A DNA stretch of 55,324 nucleotides, taken from contig MHEE01000016.1 in the NCBI GenBank assembly GCA_001805105.1, forward strand, positions 1,638 to 56,961, read 5' to 3'. Below, one piece after another: positions 7,836-48,589 of this stretch (position 1 is the first letter of the stretch; each line of letters opens with the position of its first letter). Position numbers and translations under genes: made by a program. This DNA is from Nitrospirae bacterium GWF2_44_13. Lineage in GTDB: Bacteria; Nitrospirota; Thermodesulfovibrionia; Thermodesulfovibrionales; UBA1546. Under the pieces are notes generated by a model. The model did not search any database. It worked only from the letters and a program-made list of their open reading frames with translations, and was not told where the DNA came from.

Positions 7836-9931
7836 ACCCCGAAGATTATTGATCTTTCTTCCATATCAACCCTGTCGACCTTCACCTTTAATTCCTTGCC
7901 TATGGTGTATGAGAGCTTTTTATTTTTGCCGTAAAGGGTCATTGCGCGCTCGTTAAATTCATAAAAATCATCCGTCATATACGAGACATGGAGAAAACCT
8001 TCAACATAAAAATCCTTGAGCCGTATCTTCAGACCGTAAGGCGTGACATTGACAACTCTTCCTTCAAGCTCATCTCCAACCTTGTCCTTCATAAACCACA
8101 CCCTCATGGCATTAAGAACCGCATTCTCAGCCTCGCCGGAGAGGCGCTCCGTCCTTGAAGAGTTGAATGCGATATCAGGCAGAAGGGCCTCAAGCTCCTG
8201 TTTTCTTTTTTCTGATATGCACTTCTTATGCAAAACCTCCCGCAATATACGGTGGACCACGAGGTCAGGATAGCGCCTTATCGGAGATGTGAAATGTGTA
8301 TAATGCCCTGACGCAAGGCCGAAATGCCCCGCGTTCAAAGGAGAATACCTTGCCTGCTTAAGGCTTCTCAATACCATATAATTCACCATTTCTTCCTCCG
8401 GCCTGCCTTTTACTTCTCTGAGCAGCGCAGAGAAATTTTTCGGCTCGTAACGCGCGCCATGCACCGTGCCGCGCAAAGGTTTTATATATCTCAGCATCCC
8501 TTCCATCTTTTGCGTGTCCGGCTCTTCGTGTATCCTGTAAAGAGTCGGCGTTTCGAGTTCCGCAAGATATTCCGCAACAGCCTCGTTTGCCGCTACCATA
8601 AACTCCTCAATAATTATATGCGCAAAATTTCTCTCAGCCCTTACTATCGCCTCCGGCCTGCCCTGCATATCAAGCAGGACTTCCGGTTCCGGAAGGTCAA
8701 AATCAAGGCTTCCTCTTTCAAGCCTCTTTTTTCTCAGGACACCGCACAGCTCAGCCATAAGTTCAAAATCACTTAGAAGGTAGTCATATCTTTTGCGCTC
8801 GTGCTTGTCATTATCAATAAGAATCTTTCTTACAGATGTATAGGTCATTCTCTCGTTGCTCTTTATCAGGCTCGAATAAAATTTTGCATTGAGTTTTTCA
8901 CCATGCCTGCCGAAATCCATTTCTGCTGTGAATGCAAGCCTTTCCACCTCAGGCCTCAGGCTGCACAGATCCTCGGACAGCTCATTCGGAAGCATTGGAA
9001 TCACCCTGTCAGGAAAATATGTGCTTGTGCCTCTCTTCCTTGCCTCAATATCAATAGCCGAATCCCATGGAACATAATATCCGACATCCGCTATATGCAC
9101 CCAGAGCTTATAACCGTGTTCCGTAAGTTTAATGGAAACTGCGTCATCAAAATCCTTTGCGTGTTCACCGTCGATTGTTACCGTAGGAAGCTCTCTTAAA
9201 TCTTTTCTTTTTTCTTCAGCCGCTTCGCTCATGCCCTTTACGGAAAGCATTTTTGCTTCTTCAGCAACATTTTTCGGAAATCTTCGCGGGATACTGAATT
9301 CATCTATGATAGCCTCAACTTCTGATGCGGGGTCTTCGGGCTTTTCTATTATCTTTACTATTCTGCCTGAAGGAGGCTTTCTGTCCGCAGGATAATTAAG
9401 AATCTCAGCAACAACAGTATCGCCGTTTCTGGCGCCGCCCCTGTCATTAGGCGAGACATAAAGGTCAAATGCAATGGATTTATTTTTAGGCCTCACATAA
9501 GATACGGCATTTTCGATTTCAAGCCTGCCTGCTATTTTGACGTGAGCCCTTTCAAGAATCCTTATTATTGTTCCATCCCTCTTTTGCCGGTTCTCAATCC
9601 TCACAACAACCCTGTCATTGTCCATTGCTCCGGAGGTTGCACGGGCCGGTATAAATATATCGCGCTCTCCAGGTTTTTCTATGATGACAAAACCGTAACC
9701 CTCCTTGTGCGCCTCAAAATAACCTGTCATCAGATCAACATCACTTACAGGGACATAAAGGCCTTTTCTTGTGAGCACGATATCACCGTCATGCAGCATT
9801 CTTCTGAGAACCTTTTTTAATGCGCGGGCTTCGGAAGGGCTTAATCCCATAAGATTAACCATATCCTTAAAACTAAGAGGCTTTTTTGTTTTTTCTCTGA
9901 AAAAGGAAAGGAGGGTTTGTTTGTTTACCAT
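7832..9931 (-). CDS. rnr: ribonuclease R (RNB-family 3'-5' exoribonuclease)
   Basis: Processive hydrolysis of structured RNA. In order: a winged-helix domain (about 1-65), cold-shock/OB domains (66-200), the RNB catalytic domain carrying TIDGEHAKDFDDAVS with its metal-binding aspartates near residue 255 and HFTSPIRRYPDLVVHR near residue 560, then a C-terminal S1 domain (about 620-699). There is no long basic tail after S1, so it is somewhat shorter than E. coli RNase R. The stop overlaps hisS convergently. No clear Shine-Dalgarno precedes the start. Confidence 0.95.
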   Translation of the reverse strand: MVNKQTLLSFFREKTKKPLSFKDMVNLMGLSPSEARALKKVLRRMLHDGDIVLTRKGLYVPVSDVDLMTGYFEAHKEGYGFVIIEKPGERDIFIPARATSGAMDNDRVVVRIENRQKRDGTIIRILERAHVKIAGRLEIENAVSYVRPKNKSIAFDLYVSPNDRGGARNGDTVVAEILNYPADRKPPSGRIVKIIEKPEDPASEVEAIIDEFSIPRRFPKNVAEEAKMLSVKGMSEAAEEKRKDLRELPTVTIDGEHAKDFDDAVSIKLTEHGYKLWVHIADVGYYVPWDSAIDIEARKRGTSTYFPDRVIPMLPNELSEDLCSLRPEVERLAFTAEMDFGRHGEKLNAKFYSSLIKSNERMTYTSVRKILIDNDKHERKRYDYLLSDFELMAELCGVLRKKRLERGSLDFDLPEPEVLLDMQGRPEAIVRAERNFAHIIIEEFMVAANEAVAEYLAELETPTLYRIHEEPDTQKMEGMLRYIKPLRGTVHGARYEPKNFSALLREVKGRPEEEMVNYMVLRSLKQARYSPLNAGHFGLASGHYTHFTSPIRRYPDLVVHRILREVLHKKCISEKRKQELEALLPDIAFNSSRTERLSGEAENAVLNAMRVWFMKDKVGDELEGRVVNVTPYGLKIRLKDFYVEGFLHVSYMTDDFYEFNERAMTLYGKNKKLSYTIGKELKVKVDRVDMEERSIIFGV

Positions 9932-39738: not shown

Positions 39739-40416
39739 ATGATTGACTTTAAAAAAATTCCGATATTCGGCACGTTAAATACTTCCGACATGGAGGAAGT
39801 AAAGCCCTATCTCATCCCTGCCAATTTTAAGAAAAAAGAGGCTATATTCTCCGAGGGAGATTCGTCCGACTGGCTTTATGTCGTGATTAAAGGCAAGGTC
39901 AAGATTACCAAGCTCTCACAGAGCGGAAGAGAAATCATCCTTGAAATCATTTCTCCGATGGATTTTTTCGGCGGAGTTGCCGTAATGAGAGGCTTCCCCT
40001 ACCCCGCAAATGCCGTTGCGATGGATGATGCGGAGCTTTTAAAAATATCACGAAGCAACTTAATGCGCATACTCGACAGGTTCCCCAACCTTATGTATTG
40101 CATGGCGATGAATATCGGAGACAGAATCAAGGGCTCCCATGAGGCGCTCAAAAACATCGCTATTGAAAAAGTAGAATCAAGAATAGCCTCTATGCTCATA
40201 AAGCTTGCTGATAAAGCTGGCTCCGAGCCGCTCGGAGACGGCAGCGTTACTATCGACATGAAACTTACAAAACAGGATATTGCCGAGATGGTAGGCACAA
40301 CAGTTGAGACTTCTATAAGAACCATGTCCAAGTTCAAAAAACTCGGCATTGTCTCCGAAAAAGGCGGAAAGATCGCCATCAAAGATATAAATAAGCTCAA
40401 AGCCCTTTGCGGGTAA
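39739..40416 (+). CDS. Crp/Fnr-family transcriptional regulator, probable master of the nitrogen-oxide island
   Basis: 225 aa: cNMP-like sensor domain (about 10-125), dimerisation helix (125-150) and winged helix (150-225). The recognition helix reads GTTVETSIRTMSKF; its V-E-T...R pattern is FNR-like (FNR TVETISR), not CRP-like (SRETVGR), predicting TGAT half-sites. There are only two cysteines, so no FNR [4Fe-4S] cluster is possible; a haem- or ligand-based NO sensor like DNR is conceivable but unproven. Six matching palindromes lie in the next 9.5 kb. Confidence 0.9.
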   Translation: MIDFKKIPIFGTLNTSDMEEVKPYLIPANFKKKEAIFSEGDSSDWLYVVIKGKVKITKLSQSGREIILEIISPMDFFGGVAVMRGFPYPANAVAMDDAELLKISRSNLMRILDRFPNLMYCMAMNIGDRIKGSHEALKNIAIEKVESRIASMLIKLADKAGSEPLGDGSVTIDMKLTKQDIAEMVGTTVETSIRTMSKFKKLGIVSEKGGKIAIKDINKLKALCG

Positions 40417-40462: not shown

Positions 40463-40870
40463 TTACTCCGGCTGTTTTGAATACAAAGTTGCAACCATGT
40501 TGTAGAAGAACAGAAATATTGAGACTGTCTCAACCACTCCGAAAGCAGCGGTAATGCTCCTGTAAGAATCTGTCTGATTATAAACACCGAGAGTATAGAA
40601 CAACAGCATTCCCACAAGGCCAATATTCGCAAGCCAGAACTGAACCTCTCCCATAGTCTTGCTCTTCAAAAATCTGCCTGCAAATTTGGGGAGTATATGG
40701 TAACCGACCCCGAAAATCATCATGGAGACCCAGCCAAGAAGCATAAGATGCGAGTGCACAAACTTAAACTGCATCAAAGACGGATTGCCGAACATGAATA
40801 TCCCAAGCACTGCGGCAATTGTGAGATACACAATACTCATCAAAATAAAGTTTTTCACAAATCTGTCCAT
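40463..40870 (-). CDS. small four-helix membrane protein resembling one module of haem-copper oxidase subunit I / NnrS
   Basis: 135 aa with four predicted transmembrane helices. The motif VHSHLMLLGWVSMMIFGVGYHILPKFAGR (His-x-His in helix 2, a third His near the end of the segment) resembles haem-ligand helices of CcoN-type and NnrS proteins, but the protein is far too short for a complete oxidase. It may bind haem or NO, or act as an accessory in NO handling (inference). It is divergent from 41047 and has its own palindrome (40926-40941) with a TAATTT -10 at the canonical distance. Confidence 0.7.
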   Translation of the reverse strand: MDRFVKNFILMSIVYLTIAAVLGIFMFGNPSLMQFKFVHSHLMLLGWVSMMIFGVGYHILPKFAGRFLKSKTMGEVQFWLANIGLVGMLLFYTLGVYNQTDSYRSITAAFGVVETVSIFLFFYNMVATLYSKQPE

Positions 40871-40925
40871 TAATACCTCCTGAATTTTATTTATACATAA
40901 ATTATATCATTACATATACGATTGC

Positions 40926-40941
40926 TATGATTAAAGTCATA
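40926..40941 (-). promoter_or_regulatory. Fnr-type operator upstream of the small haem-protein gene
   Basis: TATGATTAAAGTCATA, one mismatch from TGAT-N4-ATCA. Its centre (40933.5) is 29.5 bp from the minus-strand hexamer TAATTT (40904-40899), placing the operator at about -41.5. Confidence 0.7.
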
Positions 40942-40970
40942 AAAAGCTAAAAGCTGCCAGCTAACAGCTA
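40942..40970. repeat. intergenic degenerate heptamer array (unit AGCTAAA)
   Basis: Four units AGCTAAA, AGCTGCC, AGCTAAC, AGCTAAA in 7-nt phase, lying exactly between the two divergent operators. Same family as the fabF array. Confidence 0.7.
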
Positions 40971-40972
40971 AA

Positions 40973-41015
40973 TATGATATGCATCATAGCATCTGTTTTC
41001 GAGTCAGTGTAACCT
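40973..41015 (+). promoter_or_regulatory. Fnr-type operator and class II promoter of the small cysteine-protein operon
   Basis: TATGATATGCATCATA (40973-40988) has perfect TGAT and ATCA half-sites. TAACCT (41010-41015) begins exactly 29.5 bp after its centre, the spacing of an activator bound at -41.5. Confidence 0.75.
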
Positions 41016-41046
41016 AAAGTTAAGAACTTTAAAAAAGGAGGTTGAA

Positions 41047-41505
41047 ATGAAAACAAATATTATTGAAGGATGCCCGTCATGCTCTTCTATTGGAGAGTTG
41101 GCAAAAGAGACCGAAGGGAAAAAGGATTACAGGCTCTCTCACTGGCCCATACAGATTAAACTTATGGGAACGGTCATCCCGTTCCTGAATAATGCTGACC
41201 TGCTTGTGGCCGCCGACTGCACGGCATTTGCGGTTCCCGGATTTCAGGAAAGGTTTCTGAAGGATAAAAAACTTCTGATAGGCTGTCCCAAACTGGATAA
41301 TGCACAAGCCTATATTGAAAAGTTCACCGAGATATTCGGCAATATTCCCATTAAAAGCGTTTCATGCCTGAGAATGGAAGTCCCCTGCTGCGGAGGAATG
41401 ACAGCAGTATTAAAGGAAGCGATAAAGCTGTCAGGGAAAAACATCCCGCTAACCGAAACTGTCATAGGGGTTAAGGGCGATGTGCTTTCCGAGAGGGAAG
41501 TATGA
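41047..41505 (+). CDS. cysteine-rich conserved protein related to ferredoxin-associated iron-sulfur proteins
   Basis: 152 aa. Contains CPSCSS (residues 9-14), AADCTAFAVPGF, LLIGCPKLDNAQAYIEKF and MEVPCCGGM. From memory, the LLIGCPKLD...EVPCC block matches the C-terminal part of larger anaerobe proteins that carry an extra N-terminal ferredoxin domain, absent here. The clustered cysteines suggest metal or cluster binding. First gene of an operon with a DUF1858 protein and a 42-aa zinc-ribbon-like protein, under an Fnr-type operator. Confidence 0.7.
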   Translation: MKTNIIEGCPSCSSIGELAKETEGKKDYRLSHWPIQIKLMGTVIPFLNNADLLVAADCTAFAVPGFQERFLKDKKLLIGCPKLDNAQAYIEKFTEIFGNIPIKSVSCLRMEVPCCGGMTAVLKEAIKLSGKNIPLTETVIGVKGDVLSEREV

Positions 41506-41585
41506 CACATATCATAAACTTCTTTTGAGTTTATGGTTAAACTTAAGACAAGCAAAGGCAAAGACCGAAAATAAAGGAGGCGAAG

Positions 41586-41798
41586 ATGATAGCTACAAAG
41601 ACAAGATTCACAAAAGACAGCGTAATAGGAGACATAGTAAAACACAGCCCTTCTGCTTCGAAGGTTATAGAAAAGTATTTCGGCAACGGCTGCTTCACAT
41701 GCCCGGGCATGAAGGTGGAATCTCTCTCATTCGGGGCAATGATGCACAACATTGACCCTAACAAGATTATTGAAGAACTAAATTCACTGGAGGATTAA
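41586..41798 (+). CDS. DUF1858-family protein (hybrid-cluster-associated disulfide domain)
   Basis: 70 aa. The pattern VIGDIVKHSPSASKVIEKYFGNGCFTCPGMKVESL matches DUF1858, which is found alone or fused to hybrid-cluster and other redox proteins; its two cysteines (CFTC) may form a redox disulfide. Strong AGGAGG Shine-Dalgarno. Its operator and neighbours imply a nitrosative-stress role (inference). Confidence 0.85.
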   Translation: MIATKTRFTKDSVIGDIVKHSPSASKVIEKYFGNGCFTCPGMKVESLSFGAMMHNIDPNKIIEELNSLED

Positions 41799-41801
41799 CT
41801 T

Positions 41802-41930
41802 ATGGAAACGAAATGTTTTGTATGCGAAAAAACAGACAAGGAAGTAGTCTATCTTAAGTGCATCCATGAGGGAAAAGAAAAGTTTGTGTGTGTGAGATGC
41901 CTGCCGGTTCTTATACACGGGGCGCATTAA
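41802..41930 (+). CDS. 42-aa zinc-ribbon-like small protein
   Basis: ATG at 41802, stop at 41928-41930, four bases after the DUF1858 stop, with a GGAGG eight bases upstream. CxxC pairs are at residues 5/8 (KCFVCEK) and 30/33 (VCVRC), the spacing of a small zinc ribbon or rubredoxin-like knuckle. Length and Shine-Dalgarno argue that it is a real gene usually missed by length cut-offs. Function unknown; it may be the metal-binding partner of its two cysteine-rich neighbours. Confidence 0.75.
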   Translation: METKCFVCEKTDKEVVYLKCIHEGKEKFVCVRCLPVLIHGAH

Positions 41931-42087
41931 AGCAAAGCAATATTAACCGCCTTGCAGATTATTTTCTATGGCATTTTAAATGGCGTTCATATCTAAACAG
42001 AATCCTTTTAAAATGCCACACTCCTTTGCAAACGAACAGTTATGCTCTGCGGGGGACTGCCTCCAAAAAAATCCAAAAATCTGTAAA

Positions 42088-42130
42088 TATGATTTAAATC
42101 ATACACACAAAAAACAGGTTCACCTATCCT
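42088..42130 (+). promoter_or_regulatory. perfect Fnr-type operator and class II promoter of the octahaem reductase
   Basis: TATGATTTAAATCATA (42088-42103) is a perfect 16-bp palindrome. TATCCT (42125-42130) starts exactly 29.5 bp after its centre. Confidence 0.8.
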
Positions 42131-42171
42131 AAGCGCGACATGTTCTCATTGTCAAGAGTTACAAAATTGTA

Positions 42172-42199
42172 TTGACTTCTGTTTCAGCCTTGCTATTCT
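42172..42199 (+). promoter_or_regulatory. second, constitutive-looking promoter of the octahaem reductase
   Basis: TTGACT (42172-42177), 16 bp, TATTCT (42194-42199) with an extended TGC. The gene may therefore have regulated and basal transcription. Confidence 0.5.
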
Positions 42200-42290
42200 T
42201 AATTTATAAGTGGGTGAGAAGCATAACAAAAAGCGGCAAGGCAGGAGATGGGGGACATCGAATTTTAAATTTTCAAAAAGGAGGGATTAA

Positions 42291-43961
42291 ATGAAAAGGA
42301 GATTTTTTATAGCATTTATGGCAGCGCTTGCAATTTCCTTGTTAATTGGAGCCTATTACACAAGTGCAGATGCTGAAAAGGCAAAACCGTACGCAGGCAC
42401 AACTGCTAAAAAAGCAATGCCGGCAGAAAAAGGAGTGAAAGCTGAGACCTGCTATTCATGCCATTCCGATATCAAGGATTTCCATGCGAAAGGAAAACAT
42501 GCAAAGGTCAACTGCTCAAACTGTCATGAAGGGTTGAACAGTCACGTCAAGGACGCAATGACAAAGCCTGTTACAAGAACAGACCATGCTGTATGCGGCA
42601 AATGCCACAAGGAACAATATGAATCATTCGTATCCGTGAATCTCGAATCGAAGGCAAAGGTAGAGAAAGCTACATTCAAGAGCAGGTCACCGTTATTTGA
42701 CAAGCTTATGATGCCTCACGGATTTGTAAAAGAGCATGCAGAGCCGAGAAGCCATATATTCATGCTCGTTGACCACCTGACAATTGACAGGGGTTACGGA
42801 GGCCGGTTTCAGCTTAAGGACTGGACAAAGATACTTGATGCTAAAGGCGCAGAGAAATCAGCATGGGGAATTCTTATGGATAAAGACCCCTCCACTTCCG
42901 ACCAAAAGGCATTCATACCTCAGTCGGCAACAGCAGCAAACTCTGTATGTTTGCAGTGTAAGTCACAGGATAACATTCTGAGATGGAAGTACATGGGAGA
43001 TAAAGACCCGGCAGCAAAATGGGACAGGACTTCAAAGGTTGTTGATCTTGCAAAAGACCTGAAGCATCCGATGAACTGTTATATGTGCCATGACCCGCAT
43101 TCCACACAGCCGAGGGTCGTAAGAGACGGCCTTATAGAAGCAGTTGTTGACAGAGGAAAAGGCACATATCCGTATGACAAAGAAAAAAGCAGTAAGATAA
43201 CCATGAAAAAGGTAATGTTCCGTGACTTCAGGGCGATAGGAATACTCAGTAAAGCTGATTCTAACCTAATGTGCGCGCAGTGCCATGTTGAATACAACTG
43301 CAACCCCGGACACGATCCAAAGACAGGAAAAGCAATCGGTATGACTGACAGGAGGACAAACTACTTCCCATGGGCAAATGTCTTTGATATCAATAAAACA
43401 TACGAAGAGCTCGGATTCAAAGATTTTAAACATGCTGTCACAGGCGCTTCGCTTACAAAGATGCAGCATCCCGAGACAGAGACCTTCTGGGGAAGCAAAC
43501 ACGAGAAAGCAGGCGTGGAATGTAAAGACTGCCACATGCCGAGAGTTAAAAAGGCTGGAAAGACAGTCACATTTCATGGACAGAGAAGCGCAAGGTATAT
43601 GTTGAAAGATACCTGCCTCAACTGCCACAAGGGCTGGACAGTAAAAGAGGCGGAATATCAGGTTGACGCCATTCAAAATTACATAAAGGGAAAACTCACA
43701 AAGGCTGAGTTCTGGCTTGGCCAGTTTATAGACACCTTTGCAAAGGCTAAGGCCAAGGGCGTTTCCGAAGATGTGCTCAAAGACGCAAAGAAACTGCATG
43801 ATACTGCCCATACATACTGGGAGTGGTGGACTGCCGAAAATTCAGACGGTTTCCATAACCCTGATGCAGCGAGAGAATCTCTCACAAGGTCTATTGACGC
43901 ATCCCAGAAAGGCATCAAAATACTCAACGATGCGATGGCTCCAAAACCAGCAGCAAAGTAA
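42291..43961 (+). CDS. octahaem cytochrome c nitrite reductase (ONR type)
   Basis: 556 aa with a signal peptide (1-28) for the periplasm. Eight haem motifs: CxxCH at 54, 75, 102, 263, 328, 411 and 442, and CLQCK at 220 as the fourth. A lysine-ligated haem 4 is diagnostic of octahaem nitrite reductases of the Thioalkalivibrio type (six-electron nitrite or hydroxylamine reduction to ammonium), not of hydroxylamine oxidoreductase. Catalytic candidates: Y335 in CHVEYNC and H393 in QHPETETF. Y335-x-C337 has the spacing of the Tyr-Cys cross-link in that enzyme. A 16-bp hairpin follows the gene. Confidence 0.92.
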   Translation: MKRRFFIAFMAALAISLLIGAYYTSADAEKAKPYAGTTAKKAMPAEKGVKAETCYSCHSDIKDFHAKGKHAKVNCSNCHEGLNSHVKDAMTKPVTRTDHAVCGKCHKEQYESFVSVNLESKAKVEKATFKSRSPLFDKLMMPHGFVKEHAEPRSHIFMLVDHLTIDRGYGGRFQLKDWTKILDAKGAEKSAWGILMDKDPSTSDQKAFIPQSATAANSVCLQCKSQDNILRWKYMGDKDPAAKWDRTSKVVDLAKDLKHPMNCYMCHDPHSTQPRVVRDGLIEAVVDRGKGTYPYDKEKSSKITMKKVMFRDFRAIGILSKADSNLMCAQCHVEYNCNPGHDPKTGKAIGMTDRRTNYFPWANVFDINKTYEELGFKDFKHAVTGASLTKMQHPETETFWGSKHEKAGVECKDCHMPRVKKAGKTVTFHGQRSARYMLKDTCLNCHKGWTVKEAEYQVDAIQNYIKGKLTKAEFWLGQFIDTFAKAKAKGVSEDVLKDAKKLHDTAHTYWEWWTAENSDGFHNPDAARESLTRSIDASQKGIKILNDAMAPKPAAK

Positions 43962-43972
43962 TCTAAGCGACA

Positions 43973-44008
43973 CAGGACAGAAGGGCATATTAATGCCCTT
44001 CTGTCCTG
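43973..44008 (+). terminator. 16-bp perfect hairpin after the octahaem reductase
   Basis: Perfect arms 43973-43988 and 43993-44008 with an ATTA loop, 12 bp after the stop. No T-tract follows, so it may act as a 3' stabiliser or factor-dependent terminator rather than an intrinsic one. Confidence 0.6.
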
Positions 44009-44107
44009 CCTGACTCAAGGACAATGAAAGTTGTTTTCACTCAAATTCTAATTTCCTCTACCTAAAACAATACATCAAATCAACCCTTGCATTTTTAAAA
44101 ACTGTGC

Positions 44108-44150
44108 TATGATTTAAATCATAGAACTAAAATACGGTTAACCTTAAAAT
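44108..44150 (+). promoter_or_regulatory. perfect Fnr-type operator and class II promoter of norCB
   Basis: TATGATTTAAATCATA (44108-44123; 18 bp symmetrical with flanks C and G) is identical to the one before the octahaem reductase. TAAAAT (44145-44150) begins exactly 29.5 bp after its centre. Confidence 0.85.
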
Positions 44151-44200
44151 TGTTCTGAACAAACACCGGATTATCTCCGAAAATCTTGAAGGAGGCGCTT

Positions 44201-44890
44201 ATGAGCAATAAGGCTGTAAAAAATCTCTTTATCTATGGCAGTCTCTTCTTCTTTGTTATCTTTCTCGCCCTTACGTTTGACACTATGGGAAAACTTGATA
44301 AGAGGGCTCCCGAGATAACAGAAGACGTGAATGCAGGGAAAATGGCCTGGCACAAGTATGACTGCATCGGATGCCATACCATTTTCGGAAATGGTTCTTA
44401 CTTTGCGCCTGACATGACAAAGACCGCTGAGAAGAAACCAAAGGAGTATCTTAAAAAGTTTCTTATGGATCCAAAGGCTGTCAATCCACAGGCATCAATG
44501 CCTAAACTTGGAATAAGCTCTGAAGAGGCTGACAAACTGATAGCGTTCCTCGAATGGACTTCAAAAGTCGACACCAACGGCTGGCCTCCAAAACCAATTC
44601 TTGCCACAGCAGCAGGCGTTGGAGGAAAAGAGCTTACTGCAGGGCAGAAAACCTACCAGTCTCTCGGCTGTTCAGCCTGCCACATGATAAACGGAATCGG
44701 AGGTACAACAGCTCCTGAACTTACTTATGTCGGAGGCAAAAGAGACAGGGCATGGCTTACAGGCCATTTCAAAAATCCGTCAGCATACGTGCCCAATTCT
44801 GCAATGCCTGCTTATGGGAATCTGAAAGAAAAGGAGCTTAATGACTTAACTGATTACATGCTTACGCTTAAGCAGGAGGGAAAAAAATGA
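44201..44890 (+). CDS. norC: nitric oxide reductase subunit C with a second, fused cytochrome c domain
   Basis: 229 aa: one transmembrane anchor (about 6-27), a typical NorC haem domain with CIGCHTIFGNGSYFAPDM (55-72), then a second cytochrome c domain with CSACHMINGIGG (157-168) and a distal methionine candidate in SAMPAYG. Canonical NorC has about 150 aa and one haem. ATG 44201 has AAGGAGG; the earlier TTG overlaps it. The ATG of norB overlaps the stop (ATGA). Confidence 0.9.
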   Translation: MSNKAVKNLFIYGSLFFFVIFLALTFDTMGKLDKRAPEITEDVNAGKMAWHKYDCIGCHTIFGNGSYFAPDMTKTAEKKPKEYLKKFLMDPKAVNPQASMPKLGISSEEADKLIAFLEWTSKVDTNGWPPKPILATAAGVGGKELTAGQKTYQSLGCSACHMINGIGGTTAPELTYVGGKRDRAWLTGHFKNPSAYVPNSAMPAYGNLKEKELNDLTDYMLTLKQEGKK

Positions 44891-46260
44891 CGATAAAACA
44901 TGAAAGTCAAAAAATAGCGCAGCATTTCTATACATTTGCCGTGCTCTTGTTCCTTGTGCAGGTGCTGGTCGGCATAATTGCAGCAGTCCAGTTCATCTGG
45001 CCTGATTTCTTCATCCTGAACTTCAACACAATAAGGACTCTCCATATCAACGCCCTTGTGGTGTGGCTGCTTGTGGGGTTCATGGGCGCAACCTATTATG
45101 TTGTTTCTGAAGAATCGGAGACTGAGTTATGGAGCCTCCCCCTTGCAAAGTTTCAGTTCTGGGCAACGGTCGTAACCATCACTACAGTGGTTCTCGGCTA
45201 CATTATTATGGGATTATACCCACAGGCAAACATCCTTGTATTCGGCACACGGCTTTTAAATGAAGGCAGGGAATATATCGAGGCCCCCCGATGGGCAGAT
45301 GTATTGATCGTCATCTCGGTGCTCCTCTTCCTCCTGAACTGTGCAATGACCGTGCTCAAGACAAAGAAGTGGACAGGCATTCAGGGTGTTCTCCTCGGCG
45401 GCCTTGTTTTCCTCGCCCTGATGTATCTGCCCGGCATGATGTACGCAAAGAGCATGGTAAAAGACCAGTTCTGGTGGTGGTGGGTTGTTCATCTCTGGGT
45501 TGAGGGCGCATGGGAAATCATTGCAGGCGCGCTTCTTGCCTTCATGCTGATGAAGACCATCGGCGCAAAAAGAGAGGTAGTTGAAAAGTGGATGTATGTT
45601 GAAGTGGGCCTTGTCCTGTTCACAGGAATACTCGGCACAGGCCATCATTACTACTGGATAGGGACACCTGAGTACTGGCTCTGGGTCGGCGGTATATTCA
45701 GCTCACTTGAGCCAATTCCATTGCTTTTGATGGTATGGAACGCATTCAGGACAACGAGAGAGACAAGAAATGTGGAGAACAAGGTAGGGCTTTATTATAC
45801 AGTAGCTAATGCAATATTCAATTTCGTAGGCGCAGGGCTATGGGGCATAATACACACCCTGCCGCAGGTAAATAAATGGACGCACGGCACACAGATAACA
45901 ACAGCGCACGGGCATCTCGCATTCTACGGCGCATATGTTCTTCTTGTAATGGCAATGATATATGTAACGCTTCCTGCAATCAGAGGCGTTAAGGAATTTA
46001 ATCCATCAAGGGCCTTTCAGTCCTTCTGGTGGATGACAATATCAATGGTGTTTATTGTTCTCACTATCACAGGCGCAGGAATGGTTCAGACCTATATGGA
46101 AAGGCTCATGGGGCTTGATTATGTAGCTGTAAAGGCAAACTACAATCTCTGGTTCTGGATATTCAGGGCGATATTCGGCGTCGGCTTTCTTATCGGCGTG
46201 GGGATATTTGTAGTGGACTACTTCAAGCTTGGCAAAGAGCCTGCTACGGCAAGGGCATAA
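44887..46260 (+). CDS. norB: nitric oxide reductase subunit B (cNOR type)
   Basis: 457 aa, about 12 transmembrane helices. Metal ligands match cNOR: low-spin haem H53 and H343, haem b3 H341, FeB H202, H253 and H254, with E206 and E275 near the site (HLWVEGAWE, GTGHHYYW, TTAHGHLAFYG). It lacks the N-terminal extension of quinol-type qNOR, in line with the separate NorC. It reduces 2 NO to N2O. No norD or norQ maturation genes are present in the window. Confidence 0.95.
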   Translation: MTIKHESQKIAQHFYTFAVLLFLVQVLVGIIAAVQFIWPDFFILNFNTIRTLHINALVVWLLVGFMGATYYVVSEESETELWSLPLAKFQFWATVVTITTVVLGYIIMGLYPQANILVFGTRLLNEGREYIEAPRWADVLIVISVLLFLLNCAMTVLKTKKWTGIQGVLLGGLVFLALMYLPGMMYAKSMVKDQFWWWWVVHLWVEGAWEIIAGALLAFMLMKTIGAKREVVEKWMYVEVGLVLFTGILGTGHHYYWIGTPEYWLWVGGIFSSLEPIPLLLMVWNAFRTTRETRNVENKVGLYYTVANAIFNFVGAGLWGIIHTLPQVNKWTHGTQITTAHGHLAFYGAYVLLVMAMIYVTLPAIRGVKEFNPSRAFQSFWWMTISMVFIVLTITGAGMVQTYMERLMGLDYVAVKANYNLWFWIFRAIFGVGFLIGVGIFVVDYFKLGKEPATARA

Positions 46261-46265
46261 CTTAA

Positions 46266-46299
46266 GAATACGAGGGCGGTTGAAACCGCCCTCGTATTC
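46266..46299 (+). terminator. 14-bp perfect hairpin after norB
   Basis: Arms 46266-46279 and 46286-46299, loop TTGAAA, five bases after the norB stop. GC-rich and perfect but without a T-tract; the next gene starts 16 bp later, so it may only partly block transcription. Confidence 0.65.
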
Positions 46300-46314
46300 G
46301 TCTATCATATCCAC

Positions 46315-47241
46315 ATGAAGAATTTTCTCCTGATTTTCTCCATCACTGTTTCTTTATCATGTATTGGCCCTTTTTTATCTTCTGCAACAACCGAATATGC
46401 ACGCCAGACAGGCTTCGAATGTAATGAGTGTCATGCTGAAACTACCGGCGGCGGCAAGTTGACAAAAGAAGGGGAGGAATTCAGGGATGATTTAAAAATT
46501 AAAGGGCTTTACAGGCCTTTGACGAATGCGCAGAAGGTTATACGTTTCATCGTCGGATATATACACCTGTTTTTTGCAATTATATGGTTCGGCACAATAC
46601 TCTATGTTCATATACTTTTAAAACCTGCATATGCGTCAAAAGGGCTTCCGAAAGGAGAACTGCTTCTCGGCTGGCTGTCAATAATAGTCCTGACTGTAAC
46701 AGGCTTTCTCTTGTCCATCTCCAGAATACCATCATGGAAGATGCTGTATACAACAAGATTCGGGATGCTTCTGAGCATTAAGGTTATCCTTTTTTTGATA
46801 ATGGTATCTACGGCAGTTATAGTCACAGCATTTATTGGCCCGAAGATGAGGTGGAAATGGGGGCTAAAGGGAAAGGTGGAAATACCACAGGGCAAGTGTG
46901 ACCTTGCATACGAGGAGCTCCACACATTTGACGGAAAAGAAGGCCGCCCTGCATATGTCGTATACAAGGGATTAATATACGACGTAACAGCAAGCAAGCT
47001 CTGGAAAAACGGCTCTCATCTCTCAAAACATCTTGCGGGCCATGACCTGACGGATGCATTAAAAACGGCGCCTCACGGAGAGGAAAAGATTTTTGCAATG
47101 CCTCCGGTCGGAAAACTCTTACCGACATCTAAAAAATCTAAAATACCATTCTATGAAAAATTATTCTATTTTTTTGCCTATTTAAATCTTGTCTTGGTAT
47201 TTCTGATTATTTTTATTATAGCGCTCTGGAGATGGTGGTAA
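46315..47241 (+). CDS. triple-module electron-transfer protein: monohaem c motif + CopD-like membrane domain + cytochrome b5-like domain
   Basis: 308 aa. Signal peptide (1-24), one c-type haem motif FECNECHAE (35-43), membrane helices (about 72-185, CopD-like with HLFFAIIWFGTILYVHILL and conserved histidines), a soluble domain with YDVTASKLWKNGSHLSKHLAGHDLTDAL (about 225-255, cytochrome b5-like haem/steroid-binding type) and a last helix (about 280-305). It could pass electrons between quinol or periplasm and NorCB or the octahaem enzyme (inference). It has no palindrome of its own, so probably shares the norCB transcript. Confidence 0.75.
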   Translation: MKNFLLIFSITVSLSCIGPFLSSATTEYARQTGFECNECHAETTGGGKLTKEGEEFRDDLKIKGLYRPLTNAQKVIRFIVGYIHLFFAIIWFGTILYVHILLKPAYASKGLPKGELLLGWLSIIVLTVTGFLLSISRIPSWKMLYTTRFGMLLSIKVILFLIMVSTAVIVTAFIGPKMRWKWGLKGKVEIPQGKCDLAYEELHTFDGKEGRPAYVVYKGLIYDVTASKLWKNGSHLSKHLAGHDLTDALKTAPHGEEKIFAMPPVGKLLPTSKKSKIPFYEKLFYFFAYLNLVLVFLIIFIIALWRWW

Positions 47242-47250
47242 AATTACAAT

Positions 47251-47293
47251 TATGACTTATATCATAGTGCGCCCCCTCCCTCCTGTGTTATTA
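47251..47293 (+). promoter_or_regulatory. Fnr-type operator upstream of the NapH-like gene
   Basis: TATGACTTATATCATA (47251-47266), one half-site mismatch. At the canonical distance is TTATTA (47288-47293), and the ATG follows seven bases later, implying a leaderless transcript. Confidence 0.65.
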
Positions 47294-47300
47294 ATAAAGC

Positions 47301-48263
47301 ATGAAGCTGACAATATACAGGAGAATTACTCAGGTGTCATTTATACTTCTCATCTTTCTCATGCCTGTTCTGGACATCTTGAGATATGACTCAGCAACAA
47401 AAGAACTTATAATATTCGGGCAGGTATGGAGCCTCGGTCTAAAAGAGGGTTTTTACGCTGACCCGTCGGCTTCAGGCGCATTTCATATAGCGCTTCAGTT
47501 TTTCCTGAAGGCAATACTCCCGTGGCTTGCTATTCTCTTAATATTCCCTTTGCTCGGCTATCTCACTGGCAGGTTATTCTGCGGATGGCTCTGCCCTGAA
47601 GGGACACTGTTTGAGCTTGCCGATTATCTTACATTGAAACTCACTGGAAGGAGAAGTCTATACAGTAAAAGCCCTAATGACCCTGACACAGGCAAGTTCG
47701 GCAAATTGATATATGGAGCTTTAGCATTTGCAAGCGCTATCATAATCCCCCTGCTTGGAGGCATAGCGTTAACAGGATATTTTGTGGCTCCGAAAACCAT
47801 CTGGAACCAGATAATAAACTGGAATTTCACATTAGGGGTTAAGGCAGGCATTATCGGCATTTCCATATACATGCTGACTACTTCAATATTTGTCAGGCAT
47901 ACGCTCTGCAAATTTGTCTGCGCCGCAGGACTTATGCAGATGCTCTTTGGTTGGATAAGCCCTCTTTCCCTGAGACTTAAAATGGATATTGCAAAGGGCA
48001 AAGACTGCACTGACTGCAAAGAATGCGAAAAGGCATGCTTTATGAATGTTATTCCAAGGAAAAATAAAAGGGATATCTCATGCGTGAATTGCGGTGCATG
48101 CATAGCTGCGTGTAATAAAGAACTCGGCAAAGGCAGAGGGCTTTTTCATTACAGTATTGGCGAAAAATGCACTGCCCCTCAGGAAAATTGCAAGAATCTG
48201 ACCGGAATATCACCCTATCACTTACAAAAAGAACAGGAAGGTGTTAAAATTAAAGCGTTATGA
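47301..48263 (+). CDS. NapH-like membrane polyferredoxin
   Basis: 320 aa with about four to five transmembrane helices. FCGWLCPEG (about residues 93-101) is the NapH/NosR/CcoG-type cysteine pair in a loop. Two C-terminal [4Fe-4S] motifs CTDCKECEKACF and CVNCGACIAAC are followed by two more cysteines (CTAPQENC). Such proteins take electrons from quinol and feed periplasmic reductases; the likely acceptor here is the octahaem nitrite reductase or NorC (inference). The stop overlaps the short upstream ATG of the cupin frame. Confidence 0.85.
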   Translation: MKLTIYRRITQVSFILLIFLMPVLDILRYDSATKELIIFGQVWSLGLKEGFYADPSASGAFHIALQFFLKAILPWLAILLIFPLLGYLTGRLFCGWLCPEGTLFELADYLTLKLTGRRSLYSKSPNDPDTGKFGKLIYGALAFASAIIIPLLGGIALTGYFVAPKTIWNQIINWNFTLGVKAGIIGISIYMLTTSIFVRHTLCKFVCAAGLMQMLFGWISPLSLRLKMDIAKGKDCTDCKECEKACFMNVIPRKNKRDISCVNCGACIAACNKELGKGRGLFHYSIGEKCTAPQENCKNLTGISPYHLQKEQEGVKIKAL

Positions 48264-48274
48264 AGGAGGGATCT

Positions 48275-48589
48275 ATGGAAACATTAGACCTGAAGAAATT
48301 AATTAAATTTCAGCCTGACAAGATTTCAAGAGAGATGCTTTCTGACAAGCCCGAGATGCGCATTGCCTTGATGTGCTTAAACGAAGGGCAGAAACTTGAA
48401 CCGCATAAGGCACCATTAAGGCTTCTCATGTACTGTGTTCAGGGCAAAGGAACATTTATCGTCGGAGATGAACGCATTGAGGCAGATGAAAAAACATGCA
48501 TACTCTGCGACCCGATGGTGTCTCACGGCTTTGAAGCAAACAAAGGCGAGAAACTTGTGGTTATGGCTGTTGTTACGCCGGTAGAGTAA
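48275..48589 (+). CDS. small cupin-domain protein
   Basis: 104 aa single cupin barrel. MCLNEGQKLEPHKAPLRLLMYCVQGKG and LCDPMVSHGFEANKGEKLVVMAVV carry two histidines as candidate metal ligands. The start at 48275 follows AAGGAGG; an in-frame ATG at 48260 contains that Shine-Dalgarno. Translationally close to the NapH-like gene. Small cupins in nitrogen-oxide operons may sense or handle small molecules, but no substrate can be read from the sequence. Confidence 0.8.
   Translation: METLDLKKLIKFQPDKISREMLSDKPEMRIALMCLNEGQKLEPHKAPLRLLMYCVQGKGTFIVGDERIEADEKTCILCDPMVSHGFEANKGEKLVVMAVVTPVE

Follow-up and report, generated by a model that had tools for sequence, protein, structure and literature searches.

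We suggest that three neighbouring genes, coding for a 70-aa DUF1858 thiol protein, a 42-aa cysteine protein (p42) and a 135-aa membrane protein related to subunit I of the heme-copper oxidases, belong together in Nitrospirota. Judged by their conservation across genomes, these three are the stable members of a module, which in the window (the whole stretch of DNA analysed, 55,324 nt) stands beside nitrite and nitric oxide reductase genes. We see about an even chance that this is a module activated by Crp/Fnr in response to nitric oxide or nitrite, combining a RIC-like split repair system with a membrane heme protein. The features are collected in Table 1.

Table 1. Genes, predicted Crp/Fnr boxes and promoter elements in the window.
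Feature	Position	Strand	Basis
Crp/Fnr-family regulator	39739..40416	+	Pfam cNMP_binding, HTH_Crp_2; recognition helix TTVETSIR
135-aa four-TM protein, predicted stand-alone helices IX–XII of heme-copper oxidase subunit I	40463..40870	-	PF00115 E=2e-10
Predicted -10 hexamer TAATTT, 135-aa gene promoter	40899..40904	-	position consensus
Crp/Fnr box ATGATTAAAGTCAT, 135-aa gene	40927..40940	.	motif match
Crp/Fnr box ATGATATGCATCAT, 152-aa gene	40974..40987	.	motif match
152-aa protein gene	41047..41505	+	motifs CPSC, IGCPKLD, EVPCCGG
Crp/Fnr box ATGACACATATCAT, DUF1858-p42	41502..41515	.	motif match
Predicted -10 hexamer TAAACT, 29.5 nt from box centre, DUF1858-p42	41538..41543	+	position consensus
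70-aa DUF1858 / prismane_assoc thiol protein, CFTCPG	41586..41798	+	PF08984 2e-11, TIGR03980 3e-13; PDB 2k5e relative
p42, 42-aa treble-clef-like CxxC/CxxC protein, probable zinc binder	41802..41930	+	conservation, codon pattern, model
Crp/Fnr box ATGATTTAAATCAT, octaheme nitrite reductase	42089..42102	.	motif match
Octaheme nitrite reductase, 7 CxxCH + 1 CxxCK	42291..43961	+	PF02335 1e-56, heme motifs
Crp/Fnr box ATGATTTAAATCAT, norCB, TAAAAT at -10 position	44109..44122	.	motif match
NorC-like cytochrome c	44186..44890	+	domain match
NorB-like NO reductase, HLWVEGAWE in translation	44887..46260	+	domain match
CopD-like membrane domain + cytochrome-b5-like domain, downstream of norB	46315..47241	+	domain match
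Crp/Fnr box ATGACTTATATCAT, NapH-like gene + cupin	47252..47265	.	motif match
NapH-like membrane Fe-S protein	47301..48263	+	Fer4_5 and others
Small cupin-like protein, overlaps NapH-like gene, Thermus NsrT-like	48260..48589	+	by eye

The original prediction for this DNA was an operon of three small cysteine-containing proteins, including an easily missed 42-aa gene. The three ORFs are present with their motifs, and the DUF1858 gene and p42 are, as had been noted, nearly contiguous, with a gap of 3 nt and a strong Shine–Dalgarno sequence before each (AGGAGG/GGAGG). p42 is present in 41 of 61 relatives, in 120 of 395 Nitrospirota genomes and in at least 80 named genomes; the 80 that are listed are Nitrospirota-labelled or unlabelled bins and are the best 80 matches, with 79 weaker relatives beyond. 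Residues C5, C8, C20, C30, C33, L34, P35, L37, I38, H39 and G40 are invariant in 67 sequences, as is the tail LPxLIHG. The predicted CxxC pairs at 5/8 and 30/33 are thus confirmed, together with an invariant fifth cysteine, C20, that had been overlooked. We rejected p42 as a chance or antisense artefact, since only 38 of 66 homologues have an open antisense 47-aa frame and the differences by codon position (613/510/1575) pile up at position 3. By these measures of conservation, p42 is a genuine gene.

No significant family match for p42 was found in Pfam, NCBIfam, PHROGs or PDB sequences; zf-C3HC4_3, matched weakly at E 0.003, falls below its cut-off and was rejected as the family. In the AlphaFold2 model (pLDDT 92), a CxxC knuckle is followed by a hairpin and then by a helix with the second CxxC at its start. 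On this model the fold is treble-clef-like and resembles a mini zinc finger, with two CxxC pairs in the knuckle-hairpin-helix arrangement, although structural matches are weak (Z about 4). The modelled site is one that probably binds zinc.

The 70-aa protein scores above the curated cut-offs of both DUF1858 (44.2 vs 32.2 bits, E = 2e-11) and TIGR03980 (49.5 vs 44.95 bits), and below that of ScdA_N (PF04405). In all 39 order-level loci that have sufficient flanking sequence, its gene lies directly 5′ of p42. It also precedes p42 in 79 of the 80 named loci among the matches listed, the remaining one beginning 60 nt from the end of a contig. RIC proteins combine ScdA_N with a hemerythrin-like di-iron domain. 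Here there is a single 70-aa domain, the score against TIGR03652 is 14.4 against a cut-off of 204.7, and the di-iron domain and its ligands are absent from the genes of the module. The protein is thus outside the RIC family for want of that domain; a RIC-like way of working is possible. The other association implied by the name of TIGR03980, prismane_assoc, is with hcp, which in the genome of the window is on another contig and shares only the operator with DUF1858-p42. Two homologues elsewhere are unusual. In genome G071, on its contig C14, a DUF1858 gene is followed after 3 nt by an ORF resembling a siroheme nitrite/sulfite reductase domain, with a second, weak DUF1858 match close by. In G040, a DUF1858 homologue has an in-frame TGA, and is either a selenocysteine protein or a pseudogene; CxxU selenocysteine DUF1858 proteins have been reported (PMC9312934).

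The original prediction did not include the divergently oriented 135-aa gene, and we find it to be a stable member of the module. It accompanies p42 in 40 of the 41 relatives that have p42 (p = 4e-11) and in 112 of the 120 p42 genomes of the phylum (Fisher p = 2e-59, not corrected for phylogeny), and the co-occurrence holds also where the genes are unlinked. Class-level relatives have the 135-aa gene, the DUF1858 gene and p42 in that order and in the same direction. Some genomes have the 135-aa and DUF1858 genes only, and others the 135-aa gene alone, which suggests that p42 joined later or can be lost. Genome G066 has five members of the 135-aa family among its matches; two of these are adjacent on contig C205 (725-1108 and 1131-1550), suggesting tandem copies.

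The 135-aa protein matches PF00115 (COX1) with 40.5 bits against a cut-off of 34.8, over profile positions 310-425, and an HMM built from 41 homologues matches the cbb3 subunit CcoN. His-39, His-41 and His-58 are invariant in 42 of 42 sequences, and His-39 and His-41 align with the HxH of CcoN. In CcoN this HxH, on helix X, is the axial heme-ligand pair. The model of the protein has four helices (pLDDT 87.5) and superposes over about 130 residues on helices IX–XII of many oxidase subunits I with Z of 12-14 (maximum 14.2), including residues 302-464 of CcoN (3mk7, Z 12.8) and qNOR (Z 12.9). Helical bundles readily give such Z values, so it is the sequence match that carries the heme-copper oxidase claim. 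The fold and the HxH ligands of helix X are thus those of a heme-copper oxidase subunit I, and the full 12-helix subunit with its binuclear heme-Cu/Fe site is not there, the protein having 135 residues and four helices. From the sequence, it is a divergent, one-third-size relative of subunit I, and heme binding is predicted.

The 152-aa protein gave no match to PDB or Pfam. It represents a shortened version of the C-terminal domain found in a ferredoxin family of about 250 aa, which we take to be FrdX; the N-terminal 2[4Fe-4S] ferredoxin domain of the 247-251-aa relatives is missing from the short form, which has 139-170 aa. In genome G044 the long-form ferredoxin adjoins hcp, and frdX beside hcp has been described (PMC1274295). 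By its distribution among genomes, the 152-aa protein is accessory to the module and outside its conserved core.

The window has six copies of the box ATGAY-N4-RTCAT within 40927-47265 (6.3 kb), where 0.37 are expected, and all six are intergenic or at a stop codon. The 2-Mb genome has 17 copies, against 3 for the control; several of the others are inside genes and are probably there by chance. Among the matches listed for the named genomes, the box is found in 61 of 76 DUF1858 upstream regions, where shuffled sequences predict 0.16, and it mostly starts at about -73. When promoters are aligned on the box, the distance from the box centre to the start of TATAAT is 29.5 nt in 42 of 62 DUF1858 promoters and 23 of 37 promoters of the 135-aa gene. 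This spacing places the centre at -41.5, the geometry of class II activation, and the class II Fnr-type operator that had been predicted is well borne out. The box is enriched in p42-less genomes too, which makes it a Crp/Fnr box in general use across the order, with a regulon wider than the module. Four genomes (G017, G058, G038 and G027) have 41 to 56 copies each, where the control gives 1-2 matches; their Crp/Fnr regulons are much larger than that of the genome of the window.

The boxes are probably regulated by the neighbouring Crp/Fnr protein, judging from its sequence and position; a Crp/Fnr gene is adjacent in 29 of the 80 named loci among the matches listed. Alignment of 25 orthologues with the E. 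coli FNR sequence shows an FNR-like recognition helix and no N-terminal iron-sulfur cysteine cluster. A Crp/Fnr fold without these cysteines is characteristic of the HcpR/DNR type, and HcpR and DNR likewise lack the cluster (PMC1274295). The sites depart from the published HcpR/DNR motif (PMC1274295), in that 79 of 88 have A/T outer bases and none has TTGA. The motif matches make a strong case for assigning the genes to one regulon.

Other box-linked genes bear on the nitrogen-oxide connection that the original prediction had drawn. It gains from the operator, which is common to the octaheme nitrite reductase gene, norCB and, 107 nt before its start on another contig of the same genome, hcp. 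This hcp gene (1322-2968 on contig C18) is near the contig start, and a pair of genes that look by eye like an IS3-type transposase lies just beyond its box. Also in this genome, a divergent pair of an nfu-like gene (NfuA-type Fe-S scaffold, 75 aa) and a CopD-like gene (155 aa) shares one box (position 2021 of the stretch C14:75500-79500), and an apparent sodB-like gene, identified by eye, is downstream of a minus-strand box (position 1947 of the stretch C15:71500-75500) and is followed by ferritin-like and CBS-domain genes. Several family members likewise have a gene for the CopD-like/cytochrome-b5-like protein, encoded downstream of norB in the window, in the vicinity of the module. Across genomes, we sought an upstream box in 22 norB loci; 11 of them have one, in some cases over 1 kb away from the gene, and norB is therefore only partly conserved as a target; the box is upstream in 4 of 8 hcp loci. 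Among the relatives, nor is present in 19 of 41 genomes with p42 and 4 of 20 without (p = 0.05), which is suggestive only. For hcp the numbers are 12 of 41 and 8 of 20 (p = 0.56), showing no association, and a link of p42 to hcp by genome co-occurrence was rejected. With tracking of nor weak and that of hcp absent, the module may answer another signal, such as O2 limitation.

What might the module do? We infer its biochemistry as follows. NO or a related signal would activate the Crp/Fnr protein encoded next door. In the membrane, the 135-aa protein would hold heme by its HxH pair and could capture NO or pass on electrons. The DUF1858 protein may handle thiols or metal like the N-terminal domain of the RIC proteins YtfE/ScdA/DnrN, and p42, with structural zinc or iron bound by its two CxxC pairs, could serve as its docking or delivery partner, so that these proteins would protect or repair iron centres damaged by NO. 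The 152-aa protein would be an optional Fe-S/redox accessory. A more specific and more tentative form of this proposal, which we consider possible at somewhat less than even chance, is that Nitrospirota have here an undescribed nitrosative-stress system, a single functional complex made up of a one-third heme-copper oxidase, a thiol protein of split RIC type and p42 as a new 42-aa metal-binding family, expressed under a new variant of the Crp/Fnr box.

The module could instead be a signalling device without any repair function, with the membrane heme protein as a sensor of NO or O2 and DUF1858-p42 passing its state on to the Crp/Fnr regulator. The adjoining of a Crp/Fnr gene to the module in many loci is consistent with this, as is the linkage of NsrS/NsrT to a regulator in Thermus (PMC5748679); furthermore, the DUF1858-containing protein DrpB of Thermus is membrane-associated and modulates nitrate-reductase expression via regulators (PMC6282519). 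However, the three-gene association persists in many genomes without an adjacent Crp/Fnr gene, and the module is itself a box target, which makes it look more like an effector than a sensor, so we consider a signalling function unlikely. Similarly improbable is a general anaerobic or microoxic redox set under an Fnr-like protein, with the nitrogen-oxide genes sharing the box by coincidence. The enrichment of the box in p42-less genomes, the sodB-like gene and the co-occurrence results for nor and hcp would fit such a set; against it, the intergenic boxes in this genome mostly adjoin nitrite, NO and hcp genes or Fe-S genes, and the regulator does not have the iron-sulfur cysteines of FNR.

The membrane protein might also act on NO directly, as an NO-reducing or trapping system, perhaps as a 12-helix homo-oligomer, with the small proteins as assembly or electron-transfer factors. 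Its invariant HxH pair and His-58, its match to helices IX–XII and the operator in common with norCB speak for this. We nevertheless judge it quite unlikely, as the protein lacks the CuB/FeB histidines, which belong to other helices, and the monomer would have no binuclear site. By far the least probable is the trio of the original prediction, the 152-aa, DUF1858 and p42 genes working as one unit. The genus and a few other genomes do have these genes side by side, all preceded by boxes. Nevertheless, the 152-aa gene adjoins p42 in just 7 of about 39 loci of relatives and 6 of 80 among the matches listed, is unlinked or missing in most p42 genomes, and has its own promoter, it and the DUF1858 gene each having a box rather than forming one operon of three. 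Thus, the trio as a conserved unit is largely refuted, and of its members only DUF1858 and p42 keep their place in the core of the nitric-oxide/nitrite response module that we favour.

These results give p42, an undescribed family of small proteins, a conserved setting and predicted partners. They define a precise regulatory box for NO and nitrite genes in the little-studied Nitrospirota, which are important for the cycling of nitrogen and sulfur in the subsurface. A minimal relative of heme-copper oxidase, consisting of a single arc, recurs by NO genes in two phyla, and what small DUF1858/ScdA_N proteins do in NO defence becomes directly testable.

The components can be compared with known proteins. 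p42 is like the zinc-binding domain of ClpX in its CxxC knuckle, its hairpin and the CxxC at the helix start, although the match is weak (Z 4.2). It differs from treble-clef zinc fingers in standing alone at 42 aa, in its fifth invariant cysteine and invariant LPxLIHG tail, and in having no significant sequence match in Pfam, NCBIfam or PDB. The 135-aa protein has the fold and HxH of helices IX–XII in common with cbb3 CcoN, but corresponds to only one of its three four-helix arcs and has no CuB/FeB site. In comparison with the hybrid-cluster-protein-associated domain (DUF1858/TIGR03980) and the ScdA_N domain of RIC, the 70-aa protein is stand-alone, without adjacent hcp or a di-iron domain.

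The regulon resembles those of the Crp/Fnr-type regulators HcpR, DNR and NnrR in content (hcp, nor, nitrite reductase and ferredoxin-like genes) and in its FNR-like spacing (PMC1274295). The box differs, being ATGAYnnnnRTCAT here and TTGACnnnnGTCAA or TTGATnnnnATCAA in the HcpR/DNR/NnrR regulons. In Bradyrhizobium, a stand-alone DUF1858 gene is next to nnrR, and its expression is 29-fold NnrR-dependent (PMC6710368).

Compared gene by gene, the locus has what appears to be a partial parallel in Thermus. On the T. thermophilus plasmid pAK1b, norCBH is divergent from the genes for an Rrf2 regulator, an ScdA_N protein and a cupin, named NsrR, NsrS and NsrT after the published nsrRST cluster, whose mutants show no anaerobic growth on nitrite (PMC5748679). 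An ORF for a 125-aa hypothetical protein (7968-8345 of the stretch examined) overlaps nsrT by 4 nt; we found no mention of it in the nsrRST passages of that paper (PMC5748679), and its record has no functional annotation. Its product is homologous to the 135-aa protein and has the same HAHM...YHALPRF motif. The regulator is Rrf2-type NsrR in Thermus and Crp/Fnr here, the cysteine motif is CCGG there and CFTCPG here, and no p42 was seen in the Thermus stretch. Both loci nevertheless combine a small cysteine protein of the ScdA_N/DUF1858 type with a stand-alone four-TM homologue of heme-copper oxidase by norCB and a regulator of the NO type.
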